From the NCBI GenBank assembly GCA_005801205.1, contig SYDJ01000078.1:1-39050 (forward strand): a DNA stretch of 39,050 bases, read 5' to 3'. The position numbers and the translations under genes were made by a program. Positions within the stretch are counted from its first letter, which is position 1. Each line of letters opens with the position of its first letter. Of this stretch, positions 1,219-12,038 are shown in pieces. Source of the DNA: Gammaproteobacteria bacterium. GTDB taxonomy: Bacteria > Pseudomonadota > Gammaproteobacteria > Pseudomonadales > Cellvibrionaceae. The notes below the pieces were generated by a model that was not told the origin of the DNA, did no database searches, and saw only the letters and a program-made list of their open reading frames with translations.

Positions 1219-1235
1219 TGCTTTAATCTGGTGCG
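1219..1235 (+). promoter_or_regulatory. Possible proximal NtrC-like activator site
   Basis: The right half TGGTGC matches six of seven NtrC dyad positions and the left half keeps TGC and the inner A, ten of fourteen overall. Its centre lies about 73 bases before the predicted start, somewhat close for an enhancer. Inference only. Confidence 0.22.
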
Positions 1236-1273: not shown

Positions 1274-1289
1274 TGGCACGTATTTCGCT
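1274..1289 (+). promoter_or_regulatory. Sigma-54 (RpoN) -24/-12 promoter before the Anbu cluster
   Basis: TGGCACG at 1274-1280 is followed by four bases and then TCGCT at 1285-1289. This matches TGGCACG-N4-TTGCT at every position but one. The invariant GG (1275-1276) and GC (1287-1288) have the exact sigma-54 spacing. A start near 1300 would leave a leader of about 27 bases before the ATG at 1327, with GTAGGTG as a plausible ribosome site. No comparable sigma-70 pair was noticed in 1097-1326. Confidence 0.7.
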
Positions 1290-1326
1290 CCATTCACATT
1301 ACCGATAATAAGTTTGTAGGTGTCCA

Positions 1327-2748
1327 ATGGCTAAACCTGTTTTTTACGATGAAATGATGGCTGCCCCTGAGGTCTTGAGGCCTCACTACCAAGCCTACGG
1401 CCAATGGTTAGGTACTTTGCCCAAAGAGCGGTTGGCGCGTAAGAAGGCCGAAGCTGATTTAACGTTCCACCGTTTAGGTATTACCTTTGCGGTCTATGGT
1501 GAAGAAGAAGGTACTGAACGATTAATTCCCTTTGATTTACTCCCTCGCATCATTCCATCCGATGAATGGAAAATGTTGCAAAAAGGTTTAGAGCAACGCG
1601 TTAAAACGTTAAATTTATTTCTACACGATATCTATCACGGGCAAGAAATTTTAAAGGCTGGTTTAATTCCACCGGAGCAAATTCTGCGTAATGCGCAATA
1701 TCGCCCAGAGATGCAGGGCGTCGATGTTCCCAATCAAATTTATGCACATATTGCTGGTGTTGATATGGTGCGCGCTGGTGCAGGTGAGTTTTACGTGTTG
1801 GAAGATAATTTGCGTGTGCCTTCTGGTGTGTCTTACATGCTGGAAAATCGCAAAATGATGATGCGTTTATTTCCAGAATTGTTTGCTAAACACGCTGTAG
1901 CCCCCGTGCAACACTACCCCGATATGTTGTTGGATAATTTACGTCAGTGTGCCCCCCAAGGTGTAGAAAACCCTAATGTAGTTGTATTAACTCCAGGTAG
2001 TTTTAACTCCGCTTATTTTGAACATGCGTTTTTGGCGCAACAAATGGGGGTGGAGTTAGTAGAGGGCCGTGATTTATTTGTGCGCGATGATTCCGTTTAT
2101 ATGCGCACGACGCAAGGGCCGAAGCGGGTTGATGTTATTTATCGCCGTTTGGACGATGATTTTTTGGATCCGCTCGCATTTCGTCAAGATTCTATGCTCG
2201 GTGTTGCTGGGTTGTTGTCGGTTTATCGTGCGGGCCGAGTGACCCTCGCTAATGCGATAGGCACGGGCGTCGCAGACGATAAGTCGATTTATCCGTACGT
2301 TCCAGAGATGATTAAATTCTATTTAGACGAAACACCCATTTTAAATAATGTGCCCACGCACATGTGCAGAAAGCCAGAAGAATTGGCCTATGTATTGGAT
2401 AACCTTGCAGAATTAGTCGTGAAAGAAACGCACGGTGCAGGTGGTTACGGCATGTTGGTTGGGCCTGCGGCGACTAAAGCGGAAATTGCAGAATTCCGCA
2501 AACATTTAATTGCCAACCCCAACAAATATATCGCGCAGCCTACGCTGGCATTATCAACGTGCCCCATTTTTGTGGATGCTGGAATTGCACCACGCCACAT
2601 AGATTTGCGCCCATTTGTGTTGTCCTCGGGTAAAGATATTCGCATGGTGCCCGGCGGTTTGACTCGAGTTGCCTTGCGTGAGGGCTCGCTAGTGGTGAAT
2701 TCATCGCAAGGTGGCGGCACTAAAGATACGTGGGTCTTGGAAGATTAA
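1327..2748 (+). CDS. Circularly permuted type 2 ATP-grasp protein of the Anbu cluster
   Basis: A 473-residue cytoplasmic protein of the circularly permuted ATP-grasp family (COG2308, formerly DUF404/DUF407), full length for the family. It is recognised by its N-terminal region (YDEMMAAPEVLRPHY), the segment GVDMVRAGAGEFYVLEDNLRVPSGVSYM (broken here for brevity at about residues 140-175), YRRLDDDFLDPLAF near 275, and the C-terminal VKETHGAGGYGML and RPFVLSSGK motifs. ATP-grasp enzymes form amide bonds from carboxylates and amines using ATP. This family is predicted, from comparative genomics, to make or extend a peptide together with the alpha-E protein that follows. It is the first gene of a four-gene cluster transcribed from a candidate sigma-54 promoter. 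The substrate is unknown. Confidence 0.93.
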   Translation: MAKPVFYDEMMAAPEVLRPHYQAYGQWLGTLPKERLARKKAEADLTFHRLGITFAVYGEEEGTERLIPFDLLPRIIPSDEWKMLQKGLEQRVKTLNLFLHDIYHGQEILKAGLIPPEQILRNAQYRPEMQGVDVPNQIYAHIAGVDMVRAGAGEFYVLEDNLRVPSGVSYMLENRKMMMRLFPELFAKHAVAPVQHYPDMLLDNLRQCAPQGVENPNVVVLTPGSFNSAYFEHAFLAQQMGVELVEGRDLFVRDDSVYMRTTQGPKRVDVIYRRLDDDFLDPLAFRQDSMLGVAGLLSVYRAGRVTLANAIGTGVADDKSIYPYVPEMIKFYLDETPILNNVPTHMCRKPEELAYVLDNLAELVVKETHGAGGYGMLVGPAATKAEIAEFRKHLIANPNKYIAQPTLALSTCPIFVDAGIAPRHIDLRPFVLSSGKDIRMVPGGLTRVALREGSLVVNSSQGGGTKDTWVLED

Positions 2749-2803
2749 GAATTAGAAAAGTAATTTTGCCGCACAGCAATCTGTGTTAGACGGAGAAGAA
2801 AAT

Positions 2804-3751
2804 ATGTTATCACGCACGGCAGATCATTTGTTTTGGTTGGCGCGCTACATTGAGCGCGCAGAAAATATTGCGCGTTTATTAGATATTACGTGGCAAACAT
2901 CACTTGCGCCGCAATCTGCTGAGAGCGCGAGCCGTAATTGGCAAGCTGCACTTTTGTGTAATGATCAATTGCCCACCTATTTAAAAACCTATTCAGAAGT
3001 CACTGCAGAAAATGTGTTGGCCTTTATGGTGTTTGATGCGAGCAATCCTTCGTCCATTTATTCTTGTTTAAAAGCGGCGCGCGAAAATGCTCATACAGTG
3101 CGCGGCACTCTAACCTCTGAAATGTGGGAGACCATAAATTCAACCTGGTTGGAAATGTTAAACGTTAGCAAACGCAAATTGCAGGATGAAGAGTTCTCAG
3201 GTTTTTTTGAATGGGTAAAAACGCGTTCATCGCTCTCGCGTGGTGTAACTTTCGGCACCATGTTGCACGACGATGCGTTTTGTTTTATTCGCTTAGGTAC
3301 CTACCTTGAGCGCGCCGACAATACTGCGCGCTTATTAGATGTTAAATATTATTTAATCGCAGAAGGCGAACCCATTGGTATAGCGGCTGATTATTATCAG
3401 TGGGGTGCTTTACTACGTTCAGTATCCGCGTTTGAAATTTATCGCCGTGTTTATCGCGATAGTGTATTGCCCAGCAAGGTGGCAGAGCTGTTAATTATTA
3501 ATGCTGAGTTGCCGCGCTCACTAACAACGTGCATGACAGAAGTTGAGTCAATGCTGCAGAAGTTGGCGAATCAACACTCGCAAGAAACGCAGCGTTTGGC
3601 GGGGCAGTTAAGTGCGCAATTGCGCTACGTAAAAATTGATGAAATTTTAGAAGAAGGTTTACACCCCTATTTAGAAAAGTTCCAGAATCGAATTTATGAT
3701 TTGGGTATGCGCATCAGTCACGACTTTTTAATGCCTATGCGCGCAGCCTAA
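2804..3751 (+). CDS. Alpha-E domain protein of the Anbu cluster
   Basis: A 315-residue, largely alpha-helical protein of the alpha-E family (COG2307, formerly DUF403). The family start MLSRTADHLFWLARYIERAEN and the internal repeat of the same idea, FCFIRLGTYLERADNTARLLD (around residues 165-185), are both clear. The ATG at 2804 is chosen because GGAGAAG lies just upstream; an in-frame GTG at 2783 would place that ribosome site inside the gene. Only 55 bases separate it from the ATP-grasp gene. In other bacteria the two are adjacent or fused, which supports a joint function. Its catalytic role, if any, is not known; a partner or substrate-holding role is inferred. Confidence 0.92.
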   Translation: MLSRTADHLFWLARYIERAENIARLLDITWQTSLAPQSAESASRNWQAALLCNDQLPTYLKTYSEVTAENVLAFMVFDASNPSSIYSCLKAARENAHTVRGTLTSEMWETINSTWLEMLNVSKRKLQDEEFSGFFEWVKTRSSLSRGVTFGTMLHDDAFCFIRLGTYLERADNTARLLDVKYYLIAEGEPIGIAADYYQWGALLRSVSAFEIYRRVYRDSVLPSKVAELLIINAELPRSLTTCMTEVESMLQKLANQHSQETQRLAGQLSAQLRYVKIDEILEEGLHPYLEKFQNRIYDLGMRISHDFLMPMRAA

Positions 3752-3819
3752 GTTTTTGTGGCTTGCCTTGAGTGGCTTAAGTTTACGAGTACGGCTAATG
3801 CCAACAAGAGGGATATTTT

Positions 3820-4695
3820 ATGTTGCTGAATATTCAACACGAAACTGTGTATCGTTATTCAACTCCGGTGGATTACACCATTCAACATTTGCGTTTAACG
3901 CCGCGCACTGAGGCTCACCAACAGGCGATTGATTGGAAAATTAATACGCCTGGAAAGTACCAGCGCCATACGGATGCTTATGGCAATGTTGGCCATATTT
4001 TAGTGTTAGATCGCCCCCACGAAGAAATTCGTATTACCGTTAGCGGCCAAGTTGAAATGTCCAAGGAAAATGCACACTTGCCTTCTGATGGAGGCGAAGT
4101 ACCGCTCTTGGTGTATTTGCAACCCACGCACTTAACTACAGCAGATGAAGCGATATTGGATTTAGCGCAAGCGGCGCATCGCTCAAAGCGCGGTGCAATT
4201 GATTCCATGTTTAAGCTGATCGATGGTATTCAGCGCGCCGTGGCCTATGTACCAGGTGCCAGCCAAGTTACCAGTACAGCCGCTGAGGTTCTTGAGGTGG
4301 GTGCGGGTGTTTGTCAAGATCACGCCCATGTGTTTATCGCCTGCTGCCGTGCGCTCGATTTACCCGCGCGTTATGTGAGCGGTTATATTCACCCCGGCGA
4401 TACCGACCATGCCGCCAGCCATGCGTGGGCGGATGTGTGGCTAGAGGGAATGGGTTGGGTGAGCTTTGATATCACTAACGCTAACTTTGCCGCTTCTGAG
4501 CACTGCCGTTTGGCCGTGGGGCGTGATTATTTAGATGCTTGCCCCGTTCGCGGTGTGCGTCATGGTGGCGGCGCAGAGGCGATGGAGGTGATGGTGCGAA
4601 TTGCCCACCCAGATTCGGCCGGTGTACTGCTACAATCTATAGTGTCTTTCCCTCCAATAGGTAAAGACGTTAAACAAGCTTTACCACAACAGTAA
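3820..4695 (+). CDS. Transglutaminase-like cysteine protease of the Anbu cluster
   Basis: A 291-residue protein with an N-terminal bacterial transglutaminase domain (about residues 1-80, beginning with the typical HETVYRYSTPV) and a transglutaminase/protease core. The catalytic triad is visible: Cys165 in GVCQDHAHVF, His201 in SHAWADVW and Asp217 in SFDITN. No signal peptide is seen, so it should act in the cytoplasm. Members beside Anbu genes are thought to cleave or remodel peptides rather than cross-link proteins, but the substrate is unknown. GAGGG precedes the ATG by about eight bases. It follows the alpha-E gene by 68 bases on the same strand. Confidence 0.92.
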   Translation: MLLNIQHETVYRYSTPVDYTIQHLRLTPRTEAHQQAIDWKINTPGKYQRHTDAYGNVGHILVLDRPHEEIRITVSGQVEMSKENAHLPSDGGEVPLLVYLQPTHLTTADEAILDLAQAAHRSKRGAIDSMFKLIDGIQRAVAYVPGASQVTSTAAEVLEVGAGVCQDHAHVFIACCRALDLPARYVSGYIHPGDTDHAASHAWADVWLEGMGWVSFDITNANFAASEHCRLAVGRDYLDACPVRGVRHGGGAEAMEVMVRIAHPDSAGVLLQSIVSFPPIGKDVKQALPQQ

Positions 4696-4716
4696 TAGTG
4701 TTCGCTCTGAGTTTTG

Positions 4717-4737
4717 CCTTGGAGCGCTCCTCCAAGG
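4717..4737 (+). promoter_or_regulatory. RNA hairpin covering the Anbu ribosome binding site
   Basis: CCTTGGAG at 4717-4724 and CTCCAAGG at 4730-4737 form a perfect eight-base stem with a five-base loop. The only Shine-Dalgarno-like bases ahead of the Anbu ATG at 4746 (AAGG, 4734-4737) are in the 3' arm. There is no T run, so it is not a typical terminator. A role in limiting Anbu translation is inferred. Confidence 0.5.
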
Positions 4738-4745
4738 TTTGAGTT

Positions 4746-5465
4746 ATGACGTATTGTATTGGGCTTCAAGTTGATTCAGGGTTAGTTTTTTTATCGGATT
4801 CACGCACTAATGCAGGTGTGGATCACATTAATACTTTTCGCAAAATGACGGTGTTAGAGCGCCCCGGCGACAGAGTTATGGTGCTGCTAACGTCTGGTAA
4901 TTTGGCGATTAGCCAAGCGGTTATCAATGAGTTAAATTTTTCAGAAAACAGCCCCTTGGTTGACGCAAAAAATATGGTAGAGGCAACCCGCATAGTGGGC
5001 AGTGCACTTCGCGCAGTCTACAGCCGCGATGCCGAAGCGTTTAAAGAGTTTGGGTTAGATTTTGCGGCCAGTTTTATTTTTGGCGGCCAGATAGGCCATG
5101 AGTCACCGCGTCTATTTCAAATTTATGCTGCAGGAAATTTTATTGAAACCACCCGAGAAACGCCTTACTTTCAAGTGGGTGAATCCAAATACGGCAAGCC
5201 GATTATTGACCGCGTGGTTGAGCCGCACACTACCTTAAAAGATGCTGCTAAGTGCGCCTTGATTTCCATGGATTCAACCATTCGTTCAAATTTGAGCGTA
5301 GGAATGCCGCTGGATTTATTGGTATATGAAACCAATAGCTTGACGGTAAAAACCCATGTGAGCATTGGCTTGGATGACCCTTATTACAAGCAATTGCGAT
5401 CAAGTTGGGGCGAGCGTTTGCGTCACGCCTTCCATGATATGCCTGAGCCTGATTATTGGTCTTAA
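4746..5465 (+). CDS. Anbu proteasome-like peptidase
   Basis: A 239-residue Ntn-hydrolase of the Anbu (ancestral beta subunit, COG3484) family. It begins MTYCIGLQVDSGLVFLSDSR. After removal of Met1 the nucleophile would be Thr1 (Thr2 here), with Asp18 and Lys33 (precursor numbering) in the positions used by proteasome beta subunits. There is no propeptide, as in other Anbu proteins. Published Anbu structures show helical or ring-like assemblies with low or undetected peptidase activity, so the natural substrate is open. It is last in the cluster after ATP-grasp, alpha-E and transglutaminase genes, an association known across Proteobacteria and Cyanobacteria. It ends six bases from the convergent GGDEF-EAL gene. 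HslV is an alternative family but lacks this start sequence. Confidence 0.94.
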   Translation: MTYCIGLQVDSGLVFLSDSRTNAGVDHINTFRKMTVLERPGDRVMVLLTSGNLAISQAVINELNFSENSPLVDAKNMVEATRIVGSALRAVYSRDAEAFKEFGLDFAASFIFGGQIGHESPRLFQIYAAGNFIETTRETPYFQVGESKYGKPIIDRVVEPHTTLKDAAKCALISMDSTIRSNLSVGMPLDLLVYETNSLTVKTHVSIGLDDPYYKQLRSSWGERLRHAFHDMPEPDYWS

Positions 5466-7703: not shown

Positions 7704-8828
7704 ATGCGTAAATCTAAATCGATAATCATTGCTGTTGCTGCTTTATTAGGGATATTTTTAATTTTATTCCTTGTGAAGTTTACTCAAATTTTTTCTATGA
7801 TTGAGGCCGGCAAAAGTTTTGTACCACCGCCAGAAGCAGTAGGTGCTTTCACTGCTGAGTCGCAAGATTGGCCGAACACCTATACCGCTATGGGCACAGT
7901 AGAAGCGGATGAAGGTATTAATGTGTCAGCGGAAGTTGCTGGCAAGGTTCAAAAAATTCTATTTAAGTCTGGTGAGCGAGTTAAAGCGGGCACCGTGATT
8001 CTTATTCAAGAGTCGGGCAATGAAACCGCACAGCTCAGCGCTGCTAGCGCGCGTTTGCGTTTAGCGGAAGCCAACTATGAACGCATGGTGCAATTGCGTA
8101 AAAAAAATACCGTTTCACAAAATGAGTTAGATACAGCCTTGCAACAAAAAGAGTCGGCGCAAGGCGATGTTGATAATTTAAAAACCACACTGGATAAAAA
8201 AGTTGTTACCGCGCCGTTCGATGGTCGCTTAGGTATTCGTAAAGTTGACTTGGGTCAAGATTTAGCAGTAGGTACGCAAATCGTTTCTTTGCAAGCTACC
8301 AATCGCGTTCGTGTTAACTTCCCCGTTCCGCAATTCTGGTTAGTGAAAATGACCAAGGGTCTGCCTGTGACAGTGCAATTAGGCGATGGCTCCAATAATG
8401 TTGTGAAAGGTGAAGTAACGGCGGTTGGAGCCGATATTGATACAACTACTCGCAACGCAACCGTACAGTCTTCATTGGAAAATGCCAGCAACCAATTTAT
8501 CCCCGGCATGGCGGTGCAAACACAAGTGACTTTATCGGACCCACAAAAAGTATTGGCTGTGCCAAGTACTGCGGTTATTTTCGCGCCCTTTGGCGATACC
8601 GTTTTTGTTATCGAAAAAGATAAAGAAAAAGGCACTTTAAAAGCGCGTCAACAATTTGTACGTTTGGGAAAATCGCGCGGCGACTTTATTGAAATTGCCG
8701 ATGGTCTTAAAGCGGGTGAGCAAGTGGTAAGCGCGGGCGCATTTAAATTAACTAATGGCCAATCGGTAGTGATTAGCAAAACCCCGCAGCCAGTATTCAG
8801 TGGTACGCCAAAGCCAGCAGATAATTAA
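7704..8828 (+). CDS. RND efflux periplasmic adaptor (membrane fusion protein)
   Basis: A 374-residue MexA/AcrA-type adaptor that would link the inner-membrane RND pump to an outer-membrane channel. It starts with basic residues and one hydrophobic segment (about residues 6-27). The lipoyl halves follow, GTVEADEGINVSAEVAGKV and VTAPFDGRLGIRKVDLGQ, flanking a helical hairpin rich in Ala, Glu and Gln, then beta-barrel and membrane-proximal domains. No lipobox cysteine is seen, so it is probably anchored by the N-terminal segment. The ATG at 7704 is preferred; a longer reading from 7626 adds 26 residues that are not signal-like. The hairpin seems short, as in adaptors of the VexH/MexH sort. Operon with the pump 123 bases downstream. 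Confidence 0.92.
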   Translation: MRKSKSIIIAVAALLGIFLILFLVKFTQIFSMIEAGKSFVPPPEAVGAFTAESQDWPNTYTAMGTVEADEGINVSAEVAGKVQKILFKSGERVKAGTVILIQESGNETAQLSAASARLRLAEANYERMVQLRKKNTVSQNELDTALQQKESAQGDVDNLKTTLDKKVVTAPFDGRLGIRKVDLGQDLAVGTQIVSLQATNRVRVNFPVPQFWLVKMTKGLPVTVQLGDGSNNVVKGEVTAVGADIDTTTRNATVQSSLENASNQFIPGMAVQTQVTLSDPQKVLAVPSTAVIFAPFGDTVFVIEKDKEKGTLKARQQFVRLGKSRGDFIEIADGLKAGEQVVSAGAFKLTNGQSVVISKTPQPVFSGTPKPADN

Positions 8829-8868
8829 TAGCCAGCCGATAATTAATAGGCCTGCTGATAATTGATTT
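8814..8868 (+). repeat. Three 18-bp tandem repeats across the adaptor stop codon
   Basis: Units at 8814-8831, 8832-8849 and 8851-8868 share the pattern CCAGCAGATAATTAATAG. The first two differ at one base; the third has diverged and is offset by one base. The gene's TAA stop lies inside the first unit, so the copies look like a local duplication of the gene's 3' end. Confidence 0.75.
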
Positions 8869-8951
8869 GTTACTGAGCTGTGTTCAGTTTAATGCTGCAC
8901 TGCTTACTTGACCGTAAATTATTTTCACTCAAACATGATTGAGTTATTTAT

Positions 8952-11900
8952 ATGAAATTTACTGATATTTTTATTAAACGACCTGTGCTTGCAATGGTCG
9001 TTAGCCTGCTGATCTTAATCGCAGGTATACAGGCGGCCAGCTCCCTCTCTGTGCGCCAATATCCACGCAGCGATATTGCTGTTATCACAATCAATACTGT
9101 TTATGTTGGTGCCAACGCTGAACTAATTCGCGGTTTTATTACTACACCTATTGAGCGCGCCATTGCCTCTGCGGATGGTATTGACTACATCGAATCTAGC
9201 AGTGCGATGAGTATGTCTACCGTTAACGTGCATTTGCGTTTGAACTATGACCCGCTCAAAGCAATGACCGAAATTAGCGCCAAAGTAAATCAGGTACGCG
9301 GTGATTTGCCACCAGAATCAGAAGTGCCTGCAATTACTGTTGCGTCGGCAGATAGCCAATTTGCTTCTGCTTATTTAACGTTCAATTCAAAAATTCTTGG
9401 GCAAAATCAAATTACTGACTTCTTAACACGCTCTGTACAACCGCGCTTAACTGCCATTGCGGGTGTGCAAAAAGCAGAGGTGTTGGGTGGCCGTACTTTT
9501 GCAATGCGTATTTGGTTAAAAACCGATAAATTAGCCGCGTTAAATATTTCCCCCACTGAGGTTCGCCAAGCCCTAGCATCGAATAATGTGCAGGCTGCAA
9601 TTGGCCAAACACGCGGTAGTTATACTCAAGTAAATTTACGTGCAGATACTGATTTGAAATCGGTTGATGATTTTAAACGTTTGGTCGTTCGCCATAGCGC
9701 TGAAGGAACCATTCGTTTAGAAGATGTTGCCGATGTGGTTTTGGGCGCAGAAAACTATGATACCGAAGTAAACTATTCAGGCGATACCGCAGTATTTATG
9801 GGCGTGTGGGTTGCACCTAATGCCAACTCGCTAGAAGTTATTCGCAACGTCACCAAAGAGATGGAAAAAATTAAAGGTGATTTACCAACAGGTTTGAATG
9901 GTGGTGTAGCTTACGATGGCACTAAGTATATTGAGTCAGCGATTCATGAAGTTATTAAAACGCTGACTGAAACTTTGTTGATTATTGTTGTTGTTATTTT
10001 CTTATTCCTCGGCTTCAGCCGTTCAGTCATTATTCCTGTGTTGGCAATTCCACTCTCGCTTGTAGGTGCATTGTTCATCATGCAGCTTTGCGGATTCTCG
10101 CTGAACTTACTCACGCTTTTGTCCATTGTGCTCTGCGTGGGTTTGGTAGTGGACGATGCGATTGTGATGGTGGAAAACATCGAACGTCATATTCAAGAAG
10201 GCAAGACGCCATTCAATGCTTCTATAGTTGCAGCACGTGAATTGGCTGGGCCAATTTTAGCCATGACAGTGACGTTAATTTCAGTTTACGTGCCCATTGG
10301 TTTGCAAGGTGGTTTAACGGGCACTTTGTTCCGCGAGTTTGCAATTACCTTGGCGGGCGCTATTACAATTTCAGCCATAGTGGCGATTACCTTATCGCCA
10401 ATGTTGGGCTCGCGTATGCTGAAACCTCATAGAGGCAACGGCGCACCACTTGAGAATATTTTCAACCGCTTTCAAGCGTGGTATAGCAATAAACTGGATT
10501 ACACCTTAAATAATCGTAAAGGCGTTTATATTTTCTGGGTTGGGATTGCATTGTTGTGTTTCCCGCTTTACAGCATGTCGCCCAAAGAATTAGCACCCAC
10601 AGAAGATCAGGGTGTTATTTTCGGTATTGTGGATGCGCAATCTAACTCCACGATGGATCAATCATCGCACTATGCAAAAATTGTCAATAAAGCCTTTTCG
10701 GATGTTCCCGAAACTGACTTTACCTTTCAGATTACGTTCCCAACCGGTGGTTTTTCGGGCATGGTGTTAAAACCTTGGGATGAACGCGATCGCACAGTAT
10801 TTGAAATAAAACCTGAAATACAAAAAGCCTTGTCTGAGATTTCTGGCGTGCGCATTCTGCCGATTACTCCGCCAGCATTACCGGGTGGTGGTCAATTCCC
10901 AGTTGAGTTTGTGATTGCTTCTACGGAAGATTCCAAAGACATTTATAACTTTGCCGTTAAACTGCAAGAAAAAATGAACGCGAGTGGCAACTTCTATTTC
11001 AGTGTAATGGATATGAAAGTCGATCAGCCTGACTATCAATTGAGTATTGATCGTGAAAAAGTGGCTGACCTCGGTTTGAATATGCAGCAAGTGATTGCTG
11101 ATCTGGGAACTTTACTTGGCGGCGGCTACGTCAATCGTTTCAATATGGCGGGTCAAAGTTATAAAGTGATTCCGCAAGTGAAGCGTGCTGAACGTTTAAC
11201 GCCAGAAGATTTAACCAAGTTGTATATTACTGGCCCTGATAAAAAACTTATTCGTCTTGATCAAATTGCAACGCTTAATCACTCAACCGCACCGCGCAGT
11301 ATTAGCCGAATGCAACAATTGAACTCGGTGAAAATTAGTGGTGTTAGCGGTTTGCCTTTGGCTGAGTCATTAGCATGGCTTGAGGCGGAAGCAGCAAAAA
11401 TTCTGCCTAAAAATTACAGTATTGATTACACCGGTGAATCGCGTCAGCTCAAGCGTGAAGGCAATACTTTCTTGCCAGCATTCTTAATGGCTATCACCAT
11501 GATCTTCTTGGTGCTGTCGGCGCAGTACAATAGCTTCCGTGACCCTATTGTGATCTTGGCTGGCTCAGTACCCCTGGCAATTTTCGGTGCCTTGGTTTTC
11601 ACCTTTATTAAAATGCCAAACCCCGATATGCCATCGCTGACAGGGCCTATTTCAAGCACCCTGAATATTTACTCCCAAGTCGGTTTGGTAACTTTAATGG
11701 GTTTGATTGCGCGTAACGGTATTTTGGTTGTGGAATTTGCTAACCGTTTGCAGGAAGAGGGCGTCAGTAAAATGGATGCAATTCGTCAAGCGGCGGTTAT
11801 TCGTTTGCGCCCCGTATTAATGACCAGTATTGCGACTGTGGCCGGTCACTTGCCGCTAATTTTTGCAGCGGGTGCCGGTGCAGAAGCGCGCAACTCTATT

Positions 11901-12038
11901 GGTGTGGTCTTGGTATTCGGTATCGCCATTGGTACTGTGTTTACCTTGTTTGTATTGCCATCGGTTTATATTCTCTTGGCAAAAGACCATCATTTAGACA
12001 GACAAGAGCTTGCTGAGCTAGAGCACGGCAAAGCTTAA
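8952..12038 (+). CDS. RND family efflux pump, inner-membrane permease (HAE1 type)
   Basis: A 1028-residue AcrB/MexB-like proton-driven pump of full family length. It begins FTDIFIKRPVLAMV, as these pumps do, and has the two repeats of a transmembrane helix, a large periplasmic loop and a five-helix bundle. The TM4 proton-relay aspartates are Asp401 and Asp402 in GLVVDDAIVMVENIERH. In TM10 the usual lysine is replaced by Arg921 in GLIARNGILVVEFA, while the RLRPxLMTS motif that follows is kept. Substrates cannot be told from sequence; drugs, solvents or fatty acids are possible. No TolC-like gene follows, so a shared outer-membrane channel encoded elsewhere is inferred. A strong terminator follows. 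Confidence 0.95.
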   Translation: MKFTDIFIKRPVLAMVVSLLILIAGIQAASSLSVRQYPRSDIAVITINTVYVGANAELIRGFITTPIERAIASADGIDYIESSSAMSMSTVNVHLRLNYDPLKAMTEISAKVNQVRGDLPPESEVPAITVASADSQFASAYLTFNSKILGQNQITDFLTRSVQPRLTAIAGVQKAEVLGGRTFAMRIWLKTDKLAALNISPTEVRQALASNNVQAAIGQTRGSYTQVNLRADTDLKSVDDFKRLVVRHSAEGTIRLEDVADVVLGAENYDTEVNYSGDTAVFMGVWVAPNANSLEVIRNVTKEMEKIKGDLPTGLNGGVAYDGTKYIESAIHEVIKTLTETLLIIVVVIFLFLGFSRSVIIPVLAIPLSLVGALFIMQLCGFSLNLLTLLSIVLCVGLVVDDAIVMVENIERHIQEGKTPFNASIVAARELAGPILAMTVTLISVYVPIGLQGGLTGTLFREFAITLAGAITISAIVAITLSPMLGSRMLKPHRGNGAPLENIFNRFQAWYSNKLDYTLNNRKGVYIFWVGIALLCFPLYSMSPKELAPTEDQGVIFGIVDAQSNSTMDQSSHYAKIVNKAFSDVPETDFTFQITFPTGGFSGMVLKPWDERDRTVFEIKPEIQKALSEISGVRILPITPPALPGGGQFPVEFVIASTEDSKDIYNFAVKLQEKMNASGNFYFSVMDMKVDQPDYQLSIDREKVADLGLNMQQVIADLGTLLGGGYVNRFNMAGQSYKVIPQVKRAERLTPEDLTKLYITGPDKKLIRLDQIATLNHSTAPRSISRMQQLNSVKISGVSGLPLAESLAWLEAEAAKILPKNYSIDYTGESRQLKREGNTFLPAFLMAITMIFLVLSAQYNSFRDPIVILAGSVPLAIFGALVFTFIKMPNPDMPSLTGPISSTLNIYSQVGLVTLMGLIARNGILVVEFANRLQEEGVSKMDAIRQAAVIRLRPVLMTSIATVAGHLPLIFAAGAGAEARNSIGVVLVFGIAIGTVFTLFVLPSVYILLAKDHHLDRQELAELEHGKA

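Follow-up and report, generated by a model that had tools for sequence, protein, structure and literature searches.

The role of Anbu, a relative of the proteasome that has been proposed as ancestral, has been in question since 2008, and in published work no cleavage was seen when it was assayed as a free protease. PMC5666114 and PMC6376114 trace the Anbu operon to Valas and Bourne (2008) and Iyer et al. (2009), and to the latter the idea that a product of the ligase pair is processed by the hydrolases. In the DUF404/407-DUF403-transglutaminase cluster of Burkholderia cenocepacia H111, ATP-grasp, alpha-E and transglutaminase genes are under the control of NtrC and sigma-54; this cluster differs in including a large transglutaminase-like protein, and Anbu is not named in the available part of the report (PMC5491218). 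ATP-grasp enzymes are also genetically paired with a dedicated peptidase in RimK/RimB and RloC/RloA, but these peptidases are aspartic, and the accessible text names neither alpha-E nor Anbu (PMC12239564). In the present study, an Anbu operon was analysed in a 39,050-nucleotide stretch of DNA (contig SYDJ01000078.1; the whole stretch is called the window) from a gammaproteobacterium of the family Cellvibrionaceae. This operon is an intact new copy of the published cluster, for which the peptide-ligase idea is also in print. According to the available description of the Pseudomonas and Yersinia bercovieri operon, the two share the four families, their order, and the Anbu-1 active site and S1 pocket, whereas the window version is nearest to betaproteobacterial ones, and its clade shares a conserved sigma-54-like element. 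If Anbu acts only downstream of ATP-grasp and alpha-E, the product of this ligase under nitrogen limitation would be the key to the role of Anbu.

The initial annotation had described a complete four-gene Anbu cluster, known from earlier work and read in one direction, and this description was confirmed by open reading frames (ORFs), Pfam and structure matches. In the ORF listing of the window, positions 1327-5465 held four intact genes, all on the plus strand and separated by 55, 68 and 50 bases in gene order; order and direction matched the definition of the Anbu operon (ATP-grasp, alpha-E, transglutaminase, Anbu). The source genome (3.51 Mb, 253 contigs, 77.5% complete) carries the operon on contig C46. 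The first gene (1327..2748, +) encodes a predicted circularly permuted (CP) ATP-grasp type 2 ligase of 473 residues with an intact GGYGM glycine-rich loop; it matched PF14403 (E 7.7e-172), and its profile match was full-length (571.8 bits, profile positions 1-374 of 374). The alpha-E gene (2804..3751, +; 315 residues, predicted to be all-helical; PF04168, E 2.8e-100) encodes the partner of the ATP-grasp. Its mechanical ORF opens with GTG at 2783; translation from the ATG at 2804 begins with MLSRTAD, as is conserved in relatives. The third gene (3820..4695, +; 291 residues) encodes a transglutaminase-like enzyme matching PF01841 (E 5.1e-22), PF08379 (E 1.1e-20) and, as a solved relative, 3isr (E 1.3e-14). 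The catalytic residues named in the initial annotation (C165/H201/D217 of this enzyme; Thr, Asp and Lys of Anbu) were all present. None of the ATP-grasp, alpha-E and transglutaminase proteins received a name from NCBIfam.

The best solved relative of the ATP-grasp was 3n6x (E 2e-227), which is named a putative glutathionylspermidine synthase. In glutathionylspermidine synthetase/amidase itself, a cysteine amidase of the papain fold accompanies an amide ligase. The window protein was nevertheless rejected as a glutathionylspermidine synthase, its only profile matches at E <= 0.001 being PF14403 and PF04174. Anbu (4746..5465, +; 239 residues; PF00227, E 7.7e-6) was assigned to type 1 by comparison with published residues: Thr1, Asp17, Lys32 and Gly50 were found, together with the S1 pocket residues T20, F30, T48, L52 and S55. 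Its five solved matches (5loy, 5nyw, 5nyj, 5nyf and 5lox, E 3.6e-92 to 2.3e-64) include the Anbu of P. aeruginosa (5lox) and 5nyw, which we take to be that of Y. bercovieri; two of the five carry only the name 'Peptidase'. Membership in the HslV or 20S proteasome families was rejected, since the best solved matches were all Anbu and the archaeal beta profile gave 20 bits against a cut-off of 224. Strong purifying selection on the operon genes is shown by dN/dS (nonsynonymous to synonymous substitution rates) of 0.011-0.048 against three relatives; these values are rough, as 9 of 12 comparisons yielded one at a dS of 1.4-3.1, near saturation, and the other three were saturated.

Co-occurrence of the genes was counted in 299 Pseudomonadota genomes, the counts ignoring shared ancestry. 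Alpha-E was found in 156 genomes and CP_ATPgrasp_2 in 161 (157 above the cut-off of the family). In the five genomes with CP_ATPgrasp_2 and no alpha-E, the match was weak, with E between 1.2e-7 and 3.6e-4 and one score above that cut-off; the remaining 156 were identical to the 156 alpha-E genomes. Anbu was found in 102 genomes, 101 of which had the ATP-grasp/alpha-E pair, and it was absent from 55 of the 156 pair genomes. Among 103 Anbu loci, a listed alpha-E lay no further than 3 kb away in at least 69 and no further than 10 kb away in at least 86; nine had no alpha-E on the same contig among the matches listed. In the sample of 120 genomes from the family of the window, alpha-E accompanied Anbu in 53 of 54 Anbu genomes by a count made by eye, and in the exception (G103) the match was a 43-residue fragment. 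These findings suggest that the ATP-grasp/alpha-E pair is the core of the system and that Anbu depends on it one-way. Such a quantified one-way dependence was not met in the open-licence literature searched.

The arrangement of the genes was compared in 80 related loci, the best 80 of 593 relatives by closeness of the ATP-grasp, nearly all from Betaproteobacteria (the nearest named relative was a Cellvibrionaceae metagenome-assembled genome whose ATP-grasp was 95% identical). Alpha-E followed ATP-grasp in 79 of 80; the exception, L016, ends at the contig edge with ATP-grasp. When neighbours were typed at >=35% identity on the same strand, transglutaminase and Anbu both accompanied the pair in 36 loci, transglutaminase only in 4, Anbu only in 13 and neither in 26, with one locus cut. 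A transglutaminase of >=35% identity was thus not found behind the pair in 39 of the 80, some of which have a divergent one nearby.

Three arrangements were seen in 20 stretches from the window's family, in which genes were typed by BLAST and some by Pfam: that of the window (ATP-grasp, alpha-E, transglutaminase, Anbu; the window type); a longer cluster in which DUF2126 is joined by a second transglutaminase and an ATP-grasp/alpha-E fusion, Anbu being present in some cases and absent in others; and ATP-grasp, alpha-E and Peptidase_Mx, with a convergent Anbu. In the two loci of the last kind that were scanned, both from Cellvibrionaceae, the zinc-ribbon Peptidase_Mx occupied the position of the transglutaminase (L109:3505-4554, minus strand; L110:6031-7077, plus strand). 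Peptidase_Mx occurred in 45 of the 299 genomes, 44 of them with alpha-E, mostly elsewhere in the genome and beside the cluster in at least five. A gene for an MscS-type channel (L111:18507-19337, minus strand) lies beside a native Anbu/DUF2126/fusion cluster; genes near Anbu in L114 and L121 are similar to it by appearance only.

The structure of alpha-E was predicted confidently (predicted local distance difference test score, pLDDT, 91; predicted TM-score, pTM, 0.90), and no solved relative was found: the model had no match in the PDB at E <= 0.001 (160 at E <= 10). A natural ATP-grasp/alpha-E fusion exists (L004); its model was too poor (pLDDT 72, pTM 0.57) to show how the two parts dock. 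The GGYGM[LI] loop was kept by the ATP-grasp in all 80 best loci. When nine fusions were compared with 22 standalone ATP-grasps, the glycine-rich loop was changed in the fusions, most of which differed at G372, Y374, G375 and M376; the fusions were also altered at E159 and N161, whereas the compared positions were kept in at least 21 of the 22 standalone proteins. Judging from these residues, ATP is more likely used by the standalone ATP-grasp than by the fusion. At a second locus of the window's genome (contig C243, L102:2359-4923), a loop-altered fusion adjoins DUF2126 and a second transglutaminase. The catalytic motif of the transglutaminase was found in 37 of 40 sequences and missed in L001, L007 and L011. 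The L001 enzyme retains Cys, His and Asp all the same; that of L011 (8433-9215, Uliginosibacterium) lacks Cys and His, and there ATP-grasp and alpha-E stay and Anbu is not adjacent. The active-site motif of Anbu was present in 43 of 47 sequences.

A conserved sigma-54/NtrC-like promoter pattern was observed in many relatives. Sigma-54 sites were counted with up to 2 mismatches between -130 and -30, and upstreams of simple ORF starts served as controls. Such a site was present in 41 of 81 upstreams, compared with a mean of 3.1 and a maximum of 8 in 200 dinucleotide shuffles, and in 37 of 855 control upstreams. Exact NtrC palindromes were found in 28 of the 80 best loci and in 9 of 569 controls, and with one mismatch permitted these numbers rose to 51 of 80 and 113 of 569. 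Both sites together occurred in 35 of the 80 loci compared with 8 of 569 controls; in these 35 their spacing had a median of 68 bases and fell at 61-74 in 19. After thinning to one locus per genus, with unnamed loci kept singly, the double pattern was retained in 28 of 52. NtrC-like sites (<=1 mismatch) accompanied 35 of 40 sigma-54-positive and 16 of 40 sigma-54-negative loci. By family, the double pattern was found in 7/8 Zoogloeaceae, 5/5 Azonexaceae, 4/4 Sphaerotilaceae and 3/8 Burkholderiaceae loci. The spaced pattern across relatives was not met in the open-licence literature searched. Five loci (L026, L059, L062, L067 and L072) had an exact NtrC palindrome 5' of the ATP-grasp gene and no sigma-54 site at <=2 mismatches. 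Upstream of the native Cellvibrionaceae ATP-grasp genes, a sigma-54 match (<=2 mismatches) was seen in 3 of 10, one of them inside the predicted gene start; two of these ten upstreams were shorter than 100 bases.

In the window, position 1274, which the initial annotation had taken as the start of the cluster, naming no sigma-54 element there, is instead the first base of a sigma-54 (-24/-12) promoter-like element, TGGCACGTATTTCGC (1274..1288, +), the first gene opening at 1327. The element has one mismatch to TGGCAC-N5-TTGC, keeps GG and GC, and sits 53 bases 5' of the first ATG. A sigma-54-like element is present at -52/-53 in all four window-type orthologues from the same genus (G051, G095, G105 and G111), so its position is common to 5/5 window-type loci, the upstreams of which aligned with a mean column identity of 69%. 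A degenerate NtrC-like site, GCTTTAATCTGGTGC (1220..1234, +), has 2 mismatches to GCAC-N7-GTGC, with one half-site kept; in the same alignment column, G111 had no mismatch, G051 and G105 one each, and G095 two. (G111 and L001 have identical proteins and are probably one genome, counted as L001 among the 80 loci and as G111 among the family genomes.) In the two genomes of genus g3 that were inspected, a perfect sigma-54 consensus was found with an NtrC-like palindrome of 0 and 1 mismatch. Single sites are not rare in the window (64 sigma-54 matches at <=2 mismatches against 56 expected; 18 NtrC-like sites against 18.9, which is the chance level), and the case for a promoter is built on its conservation in related loci. 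Contig C141 of the window's genome ends in a C-terminal NtrC-like fragment, which we take to be NtrC from its C-terminal motif. Upstream of glnA in the same genome, a sigma-54-like site and separated TGCACC/GGTGCA half-sites were found, with no palindrome at <=1 mismatch.

Nitrogen induction of such clusters is already in print for two genera. In B. cenocepacia H111, I35_5080-83 were down 6.0-9.4 fold in an ntrC mutant according to the available part of PMC5491218. The accessible Pseudomonas putida data give an 11-15 fold increase of PP_2686-2688 in the nitrogen-limited wild type; of these genes, PP_2687 and PP_2688 probably encode alpha-E and ATP-grasp, respectively. It was also reported, in an account available in part, that the domains of the operon go with urea-metabolism domains in marine metagenomes.

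Taken together, these observations are consistent with an amide-conjugation cycle induced by nitrogen limitation, to which we give an even chance: a two-subunit ligase would make amide conjugates that dedicated hydrolases cut. Phosphorylated NtrC and sigma-54 would switch the operon on. ATP-grasp and alpha-E would form one ligase that joins an ATP-activated carboxylate to an amine, alpha-E being assigned as the second half because of its co-occurrence with the ATP-grasp and the natural fusion. The conjugate, or a shortened form of it, might then be cut by the transglutaminase-like enzyme, in the role of an amidase and not of a cross-linker, and by Anbu, an N-terminal threonine hydrolase, so that nitrogen held in the amide would be stored or recovered. 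Since the operon encodes no AAA+ unfoldase, a small peptide or amine conjugate seems to us somewhat likelier than a protein tag. The only activity published for a relative, as far as the available text goes, is the release of phosphate from ATP by the Y. bercovieri ATP-grasp. The initial annotation had likewise supposed that the ligase pair makes a product for the two hydrolases; this supposition is partly supported: it fits the co-occurrence best, but the transglutaminase is not a constant member of the cluster (39/80 best loci; L011).

Several points weigh against the conjugation cycle. On the regulatory side, the window's NtrC-like site, with its two mismatches, is not significant alone, and no NtrC match in the genome reaches the curated cut-off. 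NtrC-like sites (<=1 mismatch) are common in the controls and in sigma-54-negative loci, the control upstreams are simple ORF starts rather than curated promoters, and the double pattern was found in only 3 of 35 Oxalobacteraceae upstreams. PP_2686-2688 were also up 14-20 fold in a P. putida rpoN mutant, and the P. putida Anbu (PP_2685) rose only 1.12 fold in the nitrogen-limited wild type, as reported in the accessible data; both results speak against the four genes all being under simple sigma-54 control in this species. Constitutive expression, unchanged under various other conditions, was reported by Fuchs et al. in the available part of PMC5666114. On the functional side, the co-occurrence of Anbu and the pair is uncorrected for phylogeny, and one genome (G213) has Anbu alone, neither alpha-E nor CP_ATPgrasp_2 being matched in it at E <= 0.001. 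The accessible parts of PMC5666114 and PMC6376114 report that Anbu proteins failed to cleave any substrate offered and that the operon proteins showed no specific interaction with one another.

A more specific form of the conjugation cycle may be put forward tentatively, and we consider it possible, if on balance doubtful: Anbu would be a dedicated product hydrolase, not a degradative protease, alpha-E would complete the active site of the ligase, and transglutaminase, Peptidase_Mx and Anbu would be exchangeable for one nitrogen-rich amide conjugate. The one-way dependence of Anbu on the pair argues against a general protease and for either such a hydrolase or a remover of tags. The same dependence (101 of 102 genomes) also fits the view that the pair, with or without the transglutaminase, adds a peptide or amine tag to proteins, after which Anbu would strip off the tag or break down the protein that carries it. 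The Pup-proteasome system is a parallel for such tagging. This view draws as well on a comparison with the ATP-grasp/peptidase pairs RimK/RimB and Rlo (PMC12239564, available part), but no unfoldase domain was found, no small tag-like gene was seen within the operon, and the published work, as available, reports no specific interaction between the operon proteins; we hold protein tagging to be unlikely.

Fuchs et al. (2017; PMC5666114) regarded Anbu as a self-compartmentalising protease, which would serve general turnover under nitrogen limitation, its link to the ligase being incidental. Its open-ring assembly and the binding of epoxomicin to Thr1, both published for P. aeruginosa Anbu, the published binding of MG132 to Thr1 and the reported up-regulation of Anbu in nitrogen-limited P. 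putida, as given in the available texts, agree with this, as does the lone Anbu of G213. Such close company with ATP-grasp and alpha-E would, however, be unexpected of a free-standing protease; moreover, no AAA+ domain was detected by Pfam among the six window proteins scanned, and Anbu was inactive on casein and peptides in the accessible parts of PMC5666114 and PMC6376114, which makes general turnover improbable. That the transglutaminase is a true cross-linker served by ATP-grasp and alpha-E, or that the pair activates Anbu as HslU does HslV, is very improbable: the gene order and the published placing of an HslU-like tail in the groove between Anbu subunits are in favour, but the pair often stands without a similar transglutaminase behind it (39/80 best loci), Peptidase_Mx replaces this enzyme in the two loci scanned, that of L011 has lost Cys and His, and Anbu did not stimulate the ATP-grasp in the available report.

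The origin of the window's version was also examined within the window's family. Anbu was present in 54 of the 120 family genomes, and the window type was found in 5 of 21 genomes of the window's genus (85-100% identity), the matches of the others being 39-49% identical and those of G103 and G115 only fragments. No genome of this genus had a second complete Anbu. In quick trees, which took in 32 of 79 betaproteobacterial loci, the window-type sequences fell within a betaproteobacterial group both for ATP-grasp (Shimodaira-Hasegawa-like approximate likelihood ratio test, SH-aLRT, 85) and for Anbu (surrounding forks 80 and 94). The native Cellvibrionaceae sequences formed one clade (100) for ATP-grasp and alpha-E and two for Anbu, the alpha-E tree carrying a long-branch warning. 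The base composition of the operon was unremarkable. In an empty-site test for the arrival of the operon, 9 of 24 loci were inspected with 1.5 kb upstream each, and DUF4870, EAL or operon genes were found in 0 of the 7 that came from genomes with other types. The window's version looks betaproteobacterial and likely replaced the genus-native operon as a unit.

A gene for a DUF4870 protein (683-1045) precedes the operon; on the downstream side, a GGDEF-EAL gene is convergent with Anbu and has its stop codon 6 bases from it. Because the flanks vary among relatives, these genes were not counted as parts of the operon. The lone Anbu of G213 (L122:6035-6775, minus strand) adjoins a gene read as folK from its translation. 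Further downstream in the window, positions 7704-12038 hold a gene for an HlyD-type fusion protein, of which the L103 orthologue was scanned with Pfam, and then a gene read as a resistance-nodulation-division (RND) efflux pump. The HlyD gene was found near the operon in 4/4 window-type relatives.

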